Source: Verrucomicrobiota bacterium
Lineage (GTDB): Bacteria; Verrucomicrobiota; Kiritimatiellia; SS1-B-03-39; UBA6053
Reading direction: 5' to 3'
DNA: 48,855 nucleotides
Assembly (NCBI GenBank): GCA_020831625.1
Contig: JAFIGD010000038.1
Span: 1 to 48,855, forward strand
Below the pieces are notes generated by a model, which saw nothing but the letters and a program-made list of their open reading frames with translations, was not told the origin of the DNA and searched no databases. The position numbers and the translations under genes were made by a program. This document shows positions 14,701 through 21,467 of the stretch, piece after piece. Numbering within the stretch: position 1 is the first letter of the stretch; every line of letters begins with the position of its first letter.

Positions 14701-15289
14701 CGGACTCGACCACGTTCTCTCCGCCGGCGAAAACGTCAACGTGCTCGTGCTCGACACCGAGGTCTATTCCAACACCGGGGGTCAGGCCTCAAAAGCCACA
14801 CCCCTCGGCGCCGCCGCGAAGTTCGCGGTGGGCGGCAAAGCCACCGGCAAAACCGATCTCGCCCTGCAGACGATTCTCAAAGGCAACGTCTACGTCGCCA
14901 ACATCGCCCTCGGAGCCAAACTGCCCCAGGCCCTCCGCGCCATTCGCGAGGCCGAAGCCTACCCCGGCCCCTCCCTGCTCCTCGCCTACAGTCCCTGCAT
15001 CGCCCACGGCTATTCCCTCACCCGCGCCCTCACCCAGGAGGCTCTCGCGGTTGATACCGGCCACTGGCCGCTCTTCCGCTACGATCCCCGCCTCAAAGCC
15101 GCCGGCAAACCCGCCCTCCTCCTCGATTCCCCGGAGCCGAACCGCCCCCTCAAGGATTTCCTGCAAAACGAACTCCGCTTCCGCCTGCCCGAACTCGCCG
15201 ATCCCGCCCTCGCCGACGCCCGCGCCCGCGAAGCCCAGACCGCCGCACGAAACCGCTACGCCCTTCTTAAAACCCTTTCAGAAACTTAA
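11768..15289 (+). CDS. nifJ: Pyruvate:ferredoxin (flavodoxin) oxidoreductase
   Basis: A 1173-residue single-chain enzyme, the usual length for this family. It converts pyruvate and CoA to acetyl-CoA and CO2 and passes electrons to ferredoxin or flavodoxin in the cytoplasm. The N-terminal domain has YPITPSSRMGE and SQGLLLMLPNFYKIAGE. Two ferredoxin-type clusters are seen near residues 690 (CIQCGHCVLVCP) and 745 (CTGCGLCVEICP). The C-terminal TPP domain has CAGCGETPY, TGCSSIYGGNLPTTP, GGDGWAYDIGFGGLDHVL and DTEVYSNTGGQASKATP. It is followed after two bases by a dihydroorotate-dehydrogenase-like gene, a common pairing. The enzyme is oxygen-sensitive in most hosts, pointing to an anaerobic lifestyle. 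Confidence 0.97.
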   Translation: MPRPSITSPTVCIDGNHAAADVAYRLSELCAIYPITPSSRMGELADEWSHQQKPNLWGAIPEVVEMQSEGGAAGALHGALQTGALATTFTSSQGLLLMLPNFYKIAGELTPCVVHVAARAIATQGLSIFGDHSDVMAARPTGFAMLFAASVQEAHDFALISQAASLQSRIPFLHVFDGFRTSHELAPVQRLADDTLRALIDPEALRAHRERSLNPNRPVLRGTAQNPDVFFQSREASNRFYDALPGIVQAKMDRLAAETGREYHLVDYTGAPDAERVIVIMGSGAVTAAETSAHLNGKREKVGVLTVRLYRPWPAEAFLAALPNSVTSVAVLDRTKEPGAPAEPLCLDVAATLQSARPGVRVTGGRYGLGSKEFTPAMVRAVFDELALDAPRPRFTVGIEDDLTHLSLPVDPAFHLEDPETTRAVFYGLGSDGTVGANRNTLRILSEHTPLHTQGYFVFDSNKAGSRTVSHLRFGPRPVRAPYLIQSASFIACHHFSFVKTLDLLETAVPGATLLLNAPHGPDTLLSFLPTEMVADIQRLNLRVHVIDAARVAREAGLGGRINTVMQTCFFALTDILPREEALEAVRQEIRNAYGAKGADTVAKNLAAINTCLDHLHPVPLPRVLPPSAPRENPVPADAPDFVRNVTGPLLAGKGDKLPVSALPVDGTWPTGTAKWNKRDLSPIVPAWEPDLCIQCGHCVLVCPHGVITVKQAEAAKVPDAVPASPLRGVDPGENLRYLLNISLPDCTGCGLCVEICPAKDRTNPSRKALNLVEKTDHSEVQRLFDAIPVRHDQTNPATVRGVQYLPGTFEFPGACAGCGETPYLRLVSQLFGDRMLVANATGCSSIYGGNLPTTPWTTDNHGRGPAWSNSLFEDNAEFGYGFRLGVNALTRQAQTALRTLSPALELPDDARLLLDVLPETPTEFTRARQALARVLTGAQALPDSSVKAALLELADHLIPRSVWIIGGDGWAYDIGFGGLDHVLSAGENVNVLVLDTEVYSNTGGQASKATPLGAAAKFAVGGKATGKTDLALQTILKGNVYVANIALGAKLPQALRAIREAEAYPGPSLLLAYSPCIAHGYSLTRALTQEALAVDTGHWPLFRYDPRLKAAGKPALLLDSPEPNRPLKDFLQNELRFRLPELADPALADARAREAQTAARNRYALLKTLSET

Positions 15290-15291
15290 TC

Positions 15292-16287
15292 ATGAGCCTC
15301 GCCACCCGCTACCTCGGCTTTGAACTCGCCAATCCCTTCATCGCCTCCGCCTCGCCGCTCACCGGCAAGCTCGACAGCCTCAAGGGCCTCGAGGACGCCG
15401 GCGCCGCCGCCGTGGTGCTCCCCTCCGTTTTCGAAGAGCAGCTCCGTCGCGAACGCGAGGCGATCGACACCTTCACCGCCCTCAACAGCGACATGCTCAC
15501 CGAAGCCCAGAGCTTCTTTCCCGACCCCTCCCTCTACGAGCGCGAAAGCCACCGCACCCTCGGTCTCATCCGCTCCGCCCGCGCGTCCCTCGACATTCCC
15601 GTCATCGCCAGCCTCAACGGCGTCAGCCCCGACGGCTGGATCCTCTTCGCCAAAGAACTCGTCGACGCCGGCGCGCAGGCCATCGAACTCAATCTCTATC
15701 ACATCGGCTCCGACCCCGCTGTCTGCGGCCAGGAAATCGAGGCCCGCCACGAGCAGGTCGTCCGCAGCGTGCGCCAGGCGGTGAACGTGCCCGTCGCCGT
15801 CAAGCTCGGCCCCTGGTTCAGCTCCTTCGCCAACATGGCTCACCGCATCACCGAAGCCGGCGCCGACGCCCTCGTCCTCTTCAACCGCTTTTACCTGCCC
15901 GAGATCAATCCTGAAGACCTGACCCTCCAGCGGACCCTGCACCTCAGCGATTCAGAGGATCTGCTGCTCCCCATGAGCTGGATCGCCATGCTCCGGCCGC
16001 ACCTCACCGCCGATCTCGCCCTCACCGGCGGTCTTCACCGCCCCCTCGACGCCGTCAAAGCCCTCATGGCCGGCGCCAACGCGGTCATGACCACCGCCGC
16101 CCTCCTCAAAAACGGCCCCCGCCACCTCATCACCCTCCGCGAGGGCCTCGAGCAATGGATGAACGCCAAAGGCTACGCCAATCTCGACGAACTCATCGGC
16201 TGCATGAGCCGCGACCGCGTCCCCAACCCCGACCTCTTCGAGCGCACCAACTACATGAAACTCCTCGACTCCTGGCCCATGCAGTAG
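15292..16287 (+). CDS. Dihydroorotate dehydrogenase-like flavoprotein
   Basis: A 331-residue TIM-barrel protein of the dihydroorotate dehydrogenase-like group. Features include LGFELANPFIASASPLT at the N-terminus, VIASLNGVSPDGW, AIELNLYHI and VAVKLGPWFSSFANMAHRITEAGADALVLFNR, then TGGLHRPLDAVKALMAGANAVMTTAAL as the phosphate/FMN-binding end. It begins two bases after the PFOR stop and must be cotranscribed with it. Neighbours of PFOR in this family are usually not the pyrimidine-pathway enzyme; the electron partner and substrate are not established, so a role with ferredoxin is inference. Confidence 0.88.
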   Translation: MSLATRYLGFELANPFIASASPLTGKLDSLKGLEDAGAAAVVLPSVFEEQLRREREAIDTFTALNSDMLTEAQSFFPDPSLYERESHRTLGLIRSARASLDIPVIASLNGVSPDGWILFAKELVDAGAQAIELNLYHIGSDPAVCGQEIEARHEQVVRSVRQAVNVPVAVKLGPWFSSFANMAHRITEAGADALVLFNRFYLPEINPEDLTLQRTLHLSDSEDLLLPMSWIAMLRPHLTADLALTGGLHRPLDAVKALMAGANAVMTTAALLKNGPRHLITLREGLEQWMNAKGYANLDELIGCMSRDRVPNPDLFERTNYMKLLDSWPMQ

Positions 16288-16311: not shown

Positions 16312-16956
16312 TCATTCACCATGACTATTCGGTTGTTCCTGCAGAATGTCAGGCCAGGGTTCATCTTTGCCTATGATTAGGACCATGATCTGAGAATATC
16401 CAGTGGCTTGCACGACCCGTATACCCCAAACCAGTAATTCCACAGACTCCCCCGCACCACAAAGAATCACCAATTTATTACGAGAATCTTTCTCCTGTAA
16501 TGGCGGCCGGAGCGAGCCCTGCACCATAAACAGTCCATTTTTAAGAAAAACCAACTCTTCCTTTCCGAATAAAGGAAACAAAGTTAGCTCTTCACTGGAA
16601 TGAAGTAGATACATCGGCTCCAGTAGGAGGTCCAGTTGCGGTTCAGTTTTCCACGTCTCGGTTTCATATTGAAAATTGTAAAAACCCTCCTCACGGAAAA
16701 CATCATGTGTCCGGCGTATATCCTCAACAGTAAGATCTGACCCTAGGCGAAAAATAACAGGATGAACCCGATTTTCATATTTTTTGAAACTGTGCCGAAT
16801 TTTACTGCGTAATTCAGTGTGGTTCGCAACAGATTGTCCGTTCCATCGAAGATGCCCTGAATGATCCATCTCCATAACTAAATTAGATTGTGATCGGCAT
16901 CCCACCATAACGAACAGTAAAACCATCAAGACTGACGAATAGTTCATAAAATTCAT
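16312..16956 (-). CDS. Lipoprotein with two ExbD/TolR-like modules
   Basis: A 214-residue protein. MNFMNYSSVLMVLLFVMVGC is a lipoprotein-like signal ending in Cys. Residues about 35-100 (LRWNGQSVANHTELRSKI, then VHPVIFRLGSDLTVEDIRRT and a short helix-strand) resemble the periplasmic domain of ExbD/TolR. A second, shorter segment near the C-terminus (KLVILCGAGESVELLVWGIR, then ATGYSQIMVLI) repeats the strand-helix-strand pattern. The usual ExbD membrane anchor with its Asp is absent. An upstream in-frame TTG at 16989 with GGGAG before it is an alternative start. Its base composition is noticeably more AT-rich than its neighbours. The ExbD relation is by pattern only. Confidence 0.55.
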   Translation of the reverse strand: MNFMNYSSVLMVLLFVMVGCRSQSNLVMEMDHSGHLRWNGQSVANHTELRSKIRHSFKKYENRVHPVIFRLGSDLTVEDIRRTHDVFREEGFYNFQYETETWKTEPQLDLLLEPMYLLHSSEELTLFPLFGKEELVFLKNGLFMVQGSLRPPLQEKDSRNKLVILCGAGESVELLVWGIRVVQATGYSQIMVLIIGKDEPWPDILQEQPNSHGE

Positions 16957-17067
16957 GGTTATAACAATTCCGAAACTTAATCCACACAATATGCTCCCAA
17001 AATCTGGGATCAGTGGTTTGTTTTTTTACGGAAGAAAGGCAAAACGACAGGAACAGATCTGACAACT

Positions 17068-17118
17068 GTTTTCCGATGCTCGGAAAACAACAGGAAACTT
17101 TTTCCGATCTTCGGAAAA
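17068..17118. repeat. Two tandem TTTTCCGA-N3-TCGGAAAA palindromes
   Basis: Perfect eight-base dyads at 17069-17087 (loop TGC) and 17100-17118 (loop TCT). Their centres are 31 bases apart, about three helical turns. They lie in the 660-base gene-free stretch 16957-17620 and do not end in a T-run, so they look more like binding sites or extragenic palindromes than a terminator. Confidence 0.65.
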
Positions 17119-17160: not shown

Positions 17161-17249
17161 CCCGGCCTCATCCCAACCCGCAGCAAAAAGCTGTAGCTCA
17201 TAAAATTCGCTAAAGCACCAAAGCGGCTTCGCCGCGCAGTTCCGCCGCC
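17161..17249. repeat. Interspersed repeat, copy 1 (about 90 bp)
   Basis: It shares with 21334-21426 the blocks CCCGGCCTCA, GCTGTAGCTCATAAAATTCG, CTAAAGCAC, CAAAGCGGC and CGCCGCGCAGTTCCGCCG. It contains a hairpin GCGGC-TTC-GCCGC whose stem is kept and whose loop differs in copy 2. Both copies are followed by an ATCC-type degenerate repeat. No protein is encoded. Confidence 0.75.
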
Positions 17250-17260
17250 CTCCCCCACCC

Positions 17261-17289
17261 CATCCATCCGGTCAATCCCGTCAAAAAAT
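17261..17289. repeat. Degenerate ATCC repeat ending in GTCAAAAAA, copy 2
   Basis: Units CATCC, ATCCGGTCA, ATCCCGTCA followed by A6, directly after interspersed repeat copy 1. Similar to 11674-11709 and 21428-21467. Confidence 0.55.
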
Positions 17290-17383
17290 CAGCGGCCCGG
17301 CTTCGTTCTCTTCGTTTCCTTCTGTGAAAAATTCCGGTCACCAAGGTGTGCGGCAGGAATCCCCCCCGCCCCCAAAATTCCTT

Positions 17384-17574
17384 GCCCCAAAGATCAGTGT
17401 CCATCAGTGTTATCAGTGGTTTCTCTTTCTCCCTGCCCCAAAGCATCTCCGCTCTTTTTCTCGCGTTGCCCCAAGCCCACCTGCGGCGGGTAAACATCCG
17501 TGGTCTTCATCCGTGGTCTTTTTTCCTCCCCGCCCCAAAGCATTCGTGTCCTTTCGCGTTCATTCGTGGTTCAA
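17384..17574. repeat. Array of four GCCCCAA(A)G-led cassettes with degenerate 11-mers
   Basis: GCCCCAAAG or GCCCCAAG occurs at 17384, 17435, 17468 and 17532. The segments after them carry tandem degenerate units of about 10-12 bases: ATCAGTGTCC/ATCAGTGTT/ATCAGTGGTT, then ATCCGTGGTCT twice, then ATTCGTGTCC/TTCGCGTTC/ATTCGTGGTT. All share a CGTG or AGTG core. The stretch has no plausible gene; it ends shortly before the stop of the minus-strand SHD1 hydrolase gene. Confidence 0.7.
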
Positions 17575-17620
17575 TTACTTTTTGCGACGGAAAGACGCTG
17601 CGCAAATGTCGGGGATTCCC

Positions 17621-18526
17621 TCACTCAGATTGCAGCCATTTCATGGCCTCGGTGACCACTTCCGGAGGCGCGATAACATGGCCGCCGGGAAAGGTGATGA
17701 CGGTCACCGTGTTTTTGCGTTTTTTGAGCAGCTTCGAATCATGTTCCACCCAGCCGTTCGCGCCCCGGTCCCCGTCGCCGTTCACAATCGCAACCCGCAT
17801 ATTCTGTGCCGTCTCTTTAGGATTCCGGCTCCCGCCCAGCCATCCGCCGAACGACAGCACCCCCCGCCAGTTTTGCTCATAGGCCGCCGTATACCCAAAC
17901 GCCCGCGAGGCTCCACCCGAAAATCCGCCCATATACAGGCGGTCGGGGTTCGGCCGAATCTGCGCCAGAATATCCGGCAACACCTCGTCAAAGCGCTCCG
18001 TGAATTCCTGCTCATCCGCCCGGTTTCTGAGCGTGTCCACACCGACCGCGACCCAGCCCAGTTCCTCGCAGCCCTGGATTAAATTGGAAATGATCCCTCT
18101 GCCGTTCCCGCCGGGCGAAAACATGATGATCAAAGGCGGAGGATTCTCCGGGTTGTAGTTTTTCGGAAAATAGGCGTGGTAGCTCGTGGTGTGCTTGCCG
18201 ACCACTTCAAACCTCTGCCGGGTTCCCGCCCGGGCTTTGAGTTCCTCAAACAACTTCCGCTCGGCTTCTTTCCGGGCGCGGTCCGCCTCCACAACCCATT
18301 CCTGATCCGCGTCACTCAGGCGGGTCACCGGCAACACAAACCTGCCGCCGTTCACCACCTGAATTTCAACCGCGCCGACAGAGGGGTCATACGAGAGCCA
18401 GGTCGCCTCAACGGTTTGACCGTCGGCACTGTGCCAAGTGCGCGGTTCGGCGAGGACAGGGTCATTCACCGCCGAAAATAAAACCAACATCAACCCGCAG
18501 GAAAAGAATTTTTGAAATGTAGACAT
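17621..18526 (-). CDS. Secreted SHD1-domain / alpha-beta hydrolase
   Basis: A 301-residue exported protein. The signal peptide is MSTFQKFFSCGLMLVLFSAV ending near VLA. Residues about 28-80 form an SHD1-like beta domain (RTWHSADGQTVEATWLSY, then FVLPVTRLSDADQEWV), common in exported proteins of PVC bacteria. The rest is a serine-hydrolase fold: LIIMFSPGGNGRG (oxyanion region), the nucleophile elbow GGFSGGA, an Asp-rich NGDGDRG segment, and a late His in FPGGHVI. This resembles feruloyl-esterase or dienelactone-hydrolase-like enzymes; the substrate is unknown. The frame opens further upstream (18592), but the start at 18526 places the signal peptide correctly. It lies 55 bases after the transglutaminase gene, in likely operon with it. 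Confidence 0.8.
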   Translation of the reverse strand: MSTFQKFFSCGLMLVLFSAVNDPVLAEPRTWHSADGQTVEATWLSYDPSVGAVEIQVVNGGRFVLPVTRLSDADQEWVVEADRARKEAERKLFEELKARAGTRQRFEVVGKHTTSYHAYFPKNYNPENPPPLIIMFSPGGNGRGIISNLIQGCEELGWVAVGVDTLRNRADEQEFTERFDEVLPDILAQIRPNPDRLYMGGFSGGASRAFGYTAAYEQNWRGVLSFGGWLGGSRNPKETAQNMRVAIVNGDGDRGANGWVEHDSKLLKKRKNTVTVITFPGGHVIAPPEVVTEAMKWLQSE

Positions 18527-18581
18527 CTTAACGTTTCTGACAGTTCCCGGGACAGGATTCAAGCCAAGAGGCACAAAAGAA

Positions 18582-21215
18582 TCAGCGGACAAAGGTCCGT
18601 TTCACGCGGACCGAATTCAGAAAATACGGAATCCAGACGGAGCACACGATCACCGCTCCGATCACTTGGCCGAGGGCCTCGAACCGGCGGCCCGGCTCCA
18701 TGTGCCCCTCCAGTCCCCGAATCAGGAGAAATTGGCTGGTCACGATTGAAAGCAGAATTGCATAAAAGAGGAAAAAGAGGGTTTTTGCCCGGGCCTTGCG
18801 TCGAAAGATCACAATCAAATGCGCCGGGAACGCTCCGAACCCCCATGCAAGATCGAACAAGCCCAGAAAAAACAGCGGTGCCCATAAGGGATGGTACGCT
18901 TCAGAGGCCGGAGACGTCAGGGACTGCCAAACATCCATATCATAGTCCCAGTACATCTCGTTCACCAGGTTGAGCAGCCGATGGGCGATGCCGAAACACA
19001 GTGACAGAATGGGCAGGATGAGCCAGCCGCCAATGCGCATCGGCGGAAGCGGCGGCGGGTGCGCGCCGTCCAGGTCCGCAGGGGGAGGTGGCGGGCGGTG
19101 CCCGAAAGACAAGGTGCCGAACAGAAAAATACCCCACAACAGAATTCCAAACCCGATCAGAGGATAATTGGGAAGAAAACGCGCGGGTCCCTCCTCCAGA
19201 GCCTGATGCGCCCAGGGATTCGCCACCCAGTAGCTTCCCCAGTTCCAGCATTCCTCCATGACCTGTTTGTATTCCGCCAGACGGTCCGGGGGAACGTGAT
19301 CCCGGTAGGTCTCAAACAAATACGACAACACGAGCGTGTTCCCGGTTTGGGTCTCATGAAACCGGAAACGGAAATCCTCTGTGGCCCGCTCAAACTCGCT
19401 CAGTTCAAATTCCGTGTAAAACGGAAACTCGATTTCGATGTCGTGTTTCACGTGCTTCGGATGCGCGAGGGCAAAATACCGGCCCAGGCGCAGCGATGCC
19501 GGGACATGGTTGAGCAGGTTCACGAAATAGGGCTCGAACTCCAGATAAGGCAAACGCTCTCCGTTTCCGGTCTTCCATGGATCGTCCAGAACCCAGGTCT
19601 CCAGGAGGGTGACGCGGTTAATATCCTCCCGGTCCTCAACCGAGGGCAACCCCTCCGGCCGCGCAGACTGGTGCAGTTTGGCATAGTGATCCTGAAAGGT
19701 GTCCTGCAAATCGCGGAGAGAGGTTGAGGCGAGCTGGGCGCGGATTATTTCCGCCTCCATCCCTTCGAAATGCGTCGTGACATACAGCCGTACGGGCTCC
19801 TCCGCCTGTTGCGGCAGCACGTACCGCTCGGTCACATGGACACGACTGGCGTCAAAGCCGGCGCCGGTCATCTTCCGCAAGTCGGTTTCGCCGGGGCGGA
19901 TCCACAAAATCTTTCCGTAGGCGGGCACAAAAACGGTGTTAAGGGGGCCGCGCTGATGGGAATCGGTGGGGTCGAGCCAAATCACATCCCCGTCAGCTCC
20001 GGGGATACCGACAATCACGTGGTCGAACCACAGGGGAGACGGCAGATGTTCCGCAATGGTTTGGCGCAGCCGGGTGTGAACCAGGGCGGGATACGCTTCG
20101 ATTCCGGCGGCCCGCAACAGGGTGATCATTAGCACCGCCTTGTCTTTGCAGTCCCCGAAGCGCCGCCGCAACACATCCTCGACCGGATAGGGCTTGTGGG
20201 AGTGAAGCCCGGCATGAATCGAAACGTAACGCAGGGTGTCCTGCGCGTATCGAAGCGCGTAGAGAATTTTGGCCTCTTCGGTCGGCAGTCCGTTCATGTG
20301 CGCGACAGGCCCGCGCAGCATGTCGGGCAAAGGCTCCGGAATCCGGTACAAGGGCAAGGCCCACTCCACCACCTCCGCCCACGAGGAATAATCGCTCACA
20401 CTGAAGCCCGGAAACGGCCAATACCAGGACGGGGCGTCCTGATAAGTGGGCGAAGGCTCCATGTCCCGCATGTCCGCCTCCACCACCGCGCCCTCCCGGC
20501 GCACCCACTCCGGCGGCGTGCCCGAATATGGCCGCGCCTCAAAGCGGCCGGGATTTTCTTCCGGAAGCAACACCCGCACCCGATAGCGTCTCATGGGAAT
20601 GTTGGAGGAAAGTCCGAAGGATACGTGCGTCCGTCCACCGAAAATCGGGTTGTGTCCCTGCAGAGAGTACACCCATTCCACCACATCGCCGGGGCGGATA
20701 TCCTCCAGCAAGGCTTCGGCGGAAAGCTGGCCGTTGTACAAATTCCACTCCATGCTGCGCTCGCGCTCGCGAACCCGGAACGGCTGGCGCTCGGTCAGAT
20801 CGATAACCTCCCCGTCCCGATGCACCCTCAGCCGGTGAAGCGCGAACTGCTGATAGGCGGGATCGAACCAGACCTGCAGCCGGGAGGAGGCGTCAACCCC
20901 TGCGGAATTCTGAAGCAGGGTGGCCTCATGAAAAAGCCAGGCTTCCGAAGGAAGATGAACCTGCTGATCGTACAACAATGTAAACGAACCGCCTGTCCCC
21001 TCCTCCTCTTTGGATGTCAGCGGAGACAGGTCCGGTTCCAACAGATCCGCCCAGCCCGGTGCCGCCCCCCGGGTGATCACGTCTCCGGCCATCCCCTGAA
21101 CGGGGCCGACGCCGAGAATCAACCCAGCGAACAGCCGAATTAAAACCAAAAATCCCCCCGCTTTTCGGGCGGAGGCGACGGGCAAAACGTTTGGGAAAAC
21201 CTGGTATGGATTCAT
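18582..21215 (-). CDS. DUF3857 / transglutaminase-like membrane protein with DUF2569-like C-terminus
   Basis: An 877-residue envelope protein. A signal or anchor helix (about 20-42) is followed by a DUF3857 domain (about 80-260) and a transglutaminase-like domain. Its catalytic triad is visible as Cys356 (RFGDCKDKA), His399 (WFDHVIV) and Asp415 (WLDPTDSH). After a beta-rich region comes a membrane helix near 680-700, then a Pro-rich linker (HRPPPPPADLDG). A four-helix DUF2569-like module follows (IGGWLILPILSLCFGIAHRL, then two or three more hydrophobic helices) and a basic tail. The order suggests a periplasmic transglutaminase domain anchored at the inner membrane. The substrate is unknown. 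Confidence 0.85.
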   Translation of the reverse strand: MNPYQVFPNVLPVASARKAGGFLVLIRLFAGLILGVGPVQGMAGDVITRGAAPGWADLLEPDLSPLTSKEEEGTGGSFTLLYDQQVHLPSEAWLFHEATLLQNSAGVDASSRLQVWFDPAYQQFALHRLRVHRDGEVIDLTERQPFRVRERERSMEWNLYNGQLSAEALLEDIRPGDVVEWVYSLQGHNPIFGGRTHVSFGLSSNIPMRRYRVRVLLPEENPGRFEARPYSGTPPEWVRREGAVVEADMRDMEPSPTYQDAPSWYWPFPGFSVSDYSSWAEVVEWALPLYRIPEPLPDMLRGPVAHMNGLPTEEAKILYALRYAQDTLRYVSIHAGLHSHKPYPVEDVLRRRFGDCKDKAVLMITLLRAAGIEAYPALVHTRLRQTIAEHLPSPLWFDHVIVGIPGADGDVIWLDPTDSHQRGPLNTVFVPAYGKILWIRPGETDLRKMTGAGFDASRVHVTERYVLPQQAEEPVRLYVTTHFEGMEAEIIRAQLASTSLRDLQDTFQDHYAKLHQSARPEGLPSVEDREDINRVTLLETWVLDDPWKTGNGERLPYLEFEPYFVNLLNHVPASLRLGRYFALAHPKHVKHDIEIEFPFYTEFELSEFERATEDFRFRFHETQTGNTLVLSYLFETYRDHVPPDRLAEYKQVMEECWNWGSYWVANPWAHQALEEGPARFLPNYPLIGFGILLWGIFLFGTLSFGHRPPPPPADLDGAHPPPLPPMRIGGWLILPILSLCFGIAHRLLNLVNEMYWDYDMDVWQSLTSPASEAYHPLWAPLFFLGLFDLAWGFGAFPAHLIVIFRRKARAKTLFFLFYAILLSIVTSQFLLIRGLEGHMEPGRRFEALGQVIGAVIVCSVWIPYFLNSVRVKRTFVR

Positions 21216-21333: not shown

Positions 21334-21426
21334 CCCGGCCTCACCCACACCCCGCGGCACAAAAGCTGTAGCTCATAAAATTCGCTAAAGCACTCCAAAG
21401 CGGCTGCGCCGCGCAGTTCCGCCGCT
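21334..21426. repeat. Interspersed repeat, copy 2
   Basis: Matches 17161-17249 in order and orientation, including GCTGTAGCTCATAAAATTCG and the hairpin GCGGC-TGC-GCCGC. It sits between the DUF3857 gene and the gene ending at 21471, in a 255-base space without genes. Confidence 0.75.
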
Positions 21427-21427
21427 C

Positions 21428-21467
21428 CCATCCATCCCGTCGATCCGGTCGATCCCGTCAAAAAAAC
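21428..21467. repeat. Degenerate ATCC repeat ending in GTCAAAAAA, copy 3
   Basis: Units CATCC, ATCCCGTCG, ATCCGGTCG, ATCCCGTCA then A7, about nine bases apart, directly following interspersed repeat copy 2 and running up to the stop of the next minus-strand gene. Confidence 0.6.

Follow-up and report, generated by a model that had tools for sequence, protein, structure and literature searches.

The STRR sequences of cyanobacteria and the TAACTGA direct repeats are built of 7-bp units (PMC4679880). In Geobacter bemidjiensis, multicopy sequences comprise several palindrome families and families of direct repeats of 6 to 42 nt and are present in 12% of the intergenic regions (PMC2996986). REPs are palindromes that carry GTAG or CGTC tags and are linked to Y1 transposases (RAYT) (PMC3733652). 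KOPS are single 8-bp sites that are oriented from origin to terminus and read by FtsK (PMC2680272).

The repeats analyzed here lie at positions 17384-17574 of a 48,855-nt window, by which we mean the whole stretch of DNA examined. The window is contig C63 of a verrucomicrobial assembly of 4.89 Mb in 111 contigs. We favor the reading, at a probability of about 0.62, that 17384-17574 is a copy of a dispersed non-coding repeat that duplicates, and that its spread or its retention hinges on the direction of the replication fork. In the open-access literature searched, no printed description of the repeat strings was found, bar a chance match in two unrelated animal papers.

Layout of the repeat block

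The arrays at 17384-17574 are the best-repeated portion of a longer block, at approximately 17161-17580, which sits between two minus-strand ORFs. The minus strand is the natural reading direction of the repeats. Read in this way, the region contains three CACnnAT arrays (TGAT three times, GGAT twice, and a GAAT type three times) separated by CTTTGGGGC(A/G)GG, the complement of the nine-base leader GCCCCAAAG of a first-pass annotation. The "leader" thus comes after each array, as AACCAC..GAT-CTTTGGGGCA, and the minus-strand order is AACCACGAATGAACGCGAAAGGACACGAATG - CTTTGGGGCGGGG - AGACCACGGATGAAGACCACGGATG - TTTACCCGCCGCAGGTGGG - CTTGGGGCAACG - ... - CTTTGGGGCAGGGAGAAAGAG - AAACCACTGATAACACTGATGGACACTGAT - CTTTGGGGCAAGG. 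CACnnAT is the repeated core and the linkers are short; the nn dinucleotide is mostly shared inside one array and different between arrays. The features, all on the minus strand, are as follows.

16312..16989, minus strand: flanking ORF of 225 aa without a Pfam match (E 0.001)
~17161-17580, minus strand: composite dispersed repeat block that contains 17384-17574; blastn coverage drops outside it
17384..17392, minus strand: spacer ("leader") CTTTGGGGC, immediately after the CACTGAT array
17393..17420, minus strand: three-unit CACTGAT array with pitches of 9 and 10 bp, AACCACTGATAACACTGATGGACACTGAT
17435..17443, minus strand: spacer CTTTGGGGC, then AGGGAGAAAGAG; no good array directly before it
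17468..17475, minus strand: imperfect spacer CTTGGGGC
17476..17495, minus strand: inserted GTTTACCCGCCGCAGGTGGG segment, which recurs, altered, after GGAT arrays at C15 35977 and C59 57682
17496..17517, minus strand: two-unit CACGGAT array with a pitch of 13 bp, GACCACGGATGAAGACCACGGAT
17532..17540, minus strand: spacer CTTTGGGGC, immediately after the CACGAAT array
17542..17570, minus strand: degenerate three-unit array (CACGAAT, CGCGAAA, CACGAAT) with a pitch of 10 bp
17621..18592, minus strand: flanking ORF of 323 aa without a Pfam match (E 0.001), whose stop codon the block closely follows

The first-pass annotation had described four leaders, each followed by 11-base units with AGTG or CGTG cores near one helical turn apart. 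Both cores are present. Three of the leaders are exact copies of GCCCCAAAG (17384, 17435, and 17532), and the fourth, at 17468, is imperfect, consisting of GCCCCAAG and then C. Units follow the leaders at 17384 and 17532; those at 17435 and 17468 have no good array directly following. The pitch is not 11 bp; it is 9-10 bp at 17393-17420 and 17542-17570 and 13 bp in the array at 17496-17517. Near-helical phasing is supported. The judgment that the pattern is too regular for chance held up: the three exact copies of GCCCCAAAG are the only ones in the 48.9-kb window and all fall within 160 bp, a clustering of three that occurred in 0 of 300 Markov-1 windows, in which the maximum over such a distance was a single copy.

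In the sampled part of the host genome, blastn recovered further long or partial copies of the block, among other places at C49 42618-43056 (71% over 444 bp), C49 40995-41240 (80%), C80 (L402; 77% over 302), C15 35843-36053 (73% over 243), and C59 (85% over 114). The window itself holds a second, partial copy at 21334-21465, 88% identical to 17161-17288, in which TCCCGTCGA is repeated in tandem (9 bp) over 21426-21459. Adjacent palindromes TTTTCCGAnnnTCGGAAAA are found at 17069-17087 and 17100-17118 of the window, with similar ones at L012, L018, and L030 of the same genome.

The block lies ~40 bp past the stop codon of 17621-18592 and upstream of 16312-16989; it shares its strand with the two ORFs and contains one terminator-like site (17498-17516). 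It might therefore act as a local regulatory or 3'-end element of its neighbors, a terminator or an mRNA feature. We consider this very improbable: the terminator-like site and the genes are on different strands, and such sites numbered 7 against 3.6 expected. RNA folding of the block gave no signal, Rfam and tRNA scans returned no match, no inverted repeat was found among the window arrays, and no clear preference of arrays for a gene context emerged with a simple ORF caller. The initial view that the region is not a known gene, a CRISPR, or a terminator of the flanking genes was supported. To those genes, the repeat DNA is probably neutral or quasi-selfish, and a binding role on the scale of the chromosome is possible.

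Copy number, distribution, and turnover

Approximately 1.5 of the 4.9 Mb of the host genome was sampled, in contigs partly picked for carrying the leader pattern, and ORFs were called with a simple caller. Across the whole genome, GCCCCAAAGCATNCGTG had 65 matches when as many as 2 mismatches were allowed, as opposed to 1 for the backward control, and triple arrays numbered 104 as opposed to 0. In a 1.14-Mb sample, a leader stood immediately after a unit 37 times (control, 1), and there were 44 same-core arrays (control, 3), with spacings of 9, 10, 13, and 14 bp. The leader-like 9-mer by itself was not enriched in that sample (128 versus 121); only its coupling to units was.

The pattern recurs both in the rest of the genome and in relatives, which had been proposed as the check on its reality. 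Of 289 genomes sampled from the phylum, 89 had related arrays and none had a control match. Outside the phylum, named matches came from Planctomycetota, Bacteroidota (Flavobacteriales), Alphaproteobacteria, among them Asticcacaulis biprosthecium C19 with 10 array matches, and Desulfobulbaceae; sixteen of the genomes with named matches contained 1 to 96 each. These unrelated phyla share a unit grammar, AACCACnnATG or ACACnnATG, located between genes. The form coupled to CTTTGGGGCAGGG was confined to the genus among the 97 genomes searched, with 41 copies in the host, 3 in G289, and 1 in G290. The leader is therefore not supported as the defining element it had been taken for: it is genus-confined in the genomes searched, and the arrays cross phyla. 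Plasmids were searched with a 34-bp consensus and phages with the window block, and neither search yielded a match. One flavobacterial locus (L130, 2670-3203) consists of eight 72-bp head-to-tail copies, each with a three-unit array.

The dominant unit core differs from genome to genome, being CACCGAT in G289, CACAGAT in G004, and CACGGAT together with CACTGAT in the host, which points to homogenization or spread within genomes. Exact 46-bp tandem cassettes on C107 and C61 indicate local duplication. At the C61 junction, where G289 was the closest relative examined, the matching interval on its contig C304 is ~590 bp and carries two CACCGAT arrays, versus ~32 bp in the host. The junction between the PFOR and dihydroorotate dehydrogenase-like genes (window 15289-15292) is 2 bp here versus ~440-530 bp in the congeners G015 and G290 (L357, L358), and the gap in both is filled by other repeat families. 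Contigs C18, C20, C24, C48, and C61 end inside or near these repeats, so the repeats probably break the assembly. They also give spurious ORFs in mechanical ORF calls.

Pairing and orientation of the arrays

In other genomes, arrays often occur as inverted pairs. Opposed neighbors within 250 bp of each other converged in 34 cases and diverged in 0 in genome contigs, with corresponding counts of 23 and 0 in viral contigs, and three converging pairs folded as long hairpins (z of -5.7 to -11.3). These pairs suggest a hairpin or MITE origin. The arrays could then be ends or remnants of hairpin or MITE-like mobile elements, with the converging pair as the original state and single-armed copies as decayed halves. 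We consider this unlikely. The host genome has mostly same-direction cassettes (neighboring arrays ran in the same direction in 13 cases, converged in 3, and diverged in 1), and folding of the window block gave no signal. No clear target-site duplication was found in 55 paired elements, whose flanks matched little better than those of shuffled pairs, the longest matches being mostly A-rich. Carriers have no transposase in common, and no mobilizing enzyme was identified. Y1_Tnp had 10 matches in the host genome, none in G164, which has 25 arrays, and many in array-free genomes; Y1 transposase was accordingly rejected as the motor, being found in array-rich and array-poor genomes alike. Selection for hairpin pairing was likewise set aside for the inverted pairs, where the cores agree and the link2 bases of the two arms mismatch. 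In G322, a member of the Phycisphaeraceae (L121, L129), the linkers of many pairs are GA in one arm and GG in the other; at L129 the stem is unbroken when one strand folds and has mismatches in the fold of the other strand.

Long ORFs served to assign the putative local leading strand, by the GC skew at their third positions. Single-armed arrays of the host genome lay along the leading strand in 44 cases and the lagging strand in 7 (p = 1e-7), and the leader+unit combination was split 41 to 3 (p = 2e-9). Long ORFs showed no comparable bias (424 versus 389), and composition-matched shuffled 8-mers were divided 733:656. The totals for arrays, leader+unit, and ORFs include a second contig set, which on its own gave 17:1, 16:0, and 98:99, respectively. 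Among other repeat families, GATTA was split 17:15, and GACGART, at 24:3 and 11:0, was also polar. The intergenic space of the host sample (L031-L089, L401-L420) holds further dispersed short tandem families. The 6-bp GATTAAGATTACG is not polar and the 7-bp GAGTGACGAATGACG strongly favors the leading strand; the others are GTTCGAGTTCGA and GAACAGAAGGA, the latter on the leading strand only.

G088, a single 4.73-Mb contig from another family, had all 17 of its arrays along the leading strand (17:0). Windows as far as 1.94 Mb have negative skew, and those between 2.4 and 4.3 Mb have positive skew; 14 of 14 arrays below 2.05 Mb are on the minus strand and 3 of 3 above 2.3 Mb are on the plus strand, so that the strand switch coincides with the skew switch. 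Such near-perfect orientation along the replication direction in two genomes is unusual for intergenic repeats. G122 leaned mildly the same way, 24:10 among the matches listed, with close pairs left out and strands taken from a GGGGNAGGGG map to 3.1 Mb. G091, at 6:3 among the matches listed and again with the GGGGNAGGGG strand map in place of skew, and G015, at 2:2, did not clearly show the polarity.

The orientation of the repeats raises the question of whether it is set by copying at forks or by some reader of the arrays. Under the latter explanation, the arrays would be phased binding sites of a chromosomal protein and would signal which way replication or segregation runs, in the manner of KOPS or skewed architecture sequences. 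The near-helical pitch, the conserved CAC core with free linkers (link2 of paired arms is unmatched), the polarity along the leading strand, and the occurrence in many phyla are all consistent with it, and the word GGGNAGGG is found inside the spacer form GGGGCAGGG. However, the arrays number about a hundred, most genomes of the phylum and some congeneric junctions lack them, and the polarity is not seen in every genome. The skew of GGGNAGGG is no greater than that of other G-rich words in this strongly skewed genome. We therefore regard the binding-site explanation as quite unlikely. The near-identical core across distant phyla could alternatively mean a conserved reader. The broadest such proposal, that phased CAC-core arrays form a cross-phylum polar class which is read by a conserved DNA-binding protein, marks fork direction, and spreads by insertion at forks, strikes us as improbable to a slightly greater degree.

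We return to the dispersed, duplicating repeat with fork-dependent spread or retention. Its core is a phased CACnnAT array with a pitch of 9-10 or 13-14 bp and mostly one nn per array, and in this genus the spacer CTTTGGGGCAGGG chains arrays into cassettes. Copies may spread through duplication or insertion at a step sensitive to the direction of the fork, or may survive in one direction only. After spreading, the units would be altered by local tandem duplication and homogenization. It is from the orientation of the arrays alone that we infer the dependence on fork direction.

Comparison with known systems

The near-identical repeats of 20 bp or more with unique spacers that characterize CRISPR are absent here, where units are 9-13 bp and contiguous or joined by 1-6-bp linkers. 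REPs and BIMEs resemble the family in being dispersed, small, intergenic, and mosaic (PMC3733652), but the window copy is neither palindromic nor folded, and carriers need no Y1 transposase. As for the terminal inverted repeats of MITEs, converging pairs exist elsewhere and none at the window site; target-site duplication was not seen in the 55 paired elements.

KOPS are similar in their orientation along each replication arm, which is judged here relative to GC skew only, as 44:7 in the host and 17:0 in G088, and is weaker or absent in G122, G091, and G015. They differ (PMC2680272) in that the repeats studied here are multi-unit arrays, are gained and lost between congeners, and have no known reader. 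An identification with KOPS by sequence was rejected: GGGNAGGG is skewed 336:28 in the host, and other G-rich words are skewed likewise.

The repeats of G. bemidjiensis were compared by description and not by consensus, so that they may or may not be the same family, and the part of that description available makes no mention of polarity (PMC2996986). The STRR/TAACTGA repeats share with the present family the head-to-tail arrangement of short units between genes, a patchy occurrence across distant phyla, and no evident transfer mechanism (PMC4679880). Head-to-tail units at many intergenic sites are indeed found here, with 104 triple arrays genome-wide, but the unit is not a heptanucleotide, the spacings being 9, 10, 13, and 14 bp. 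The family differs further in its 9-14-bp unit with a CACnnAT core, its chaining by spacers, its converging pairs in other genomes, and its polarity with respect to replication. It is a variant form of dispersed short tandem repeats and, on the features compared, not a CRISPR, a REP, a typical MITE, or a folded RNA.
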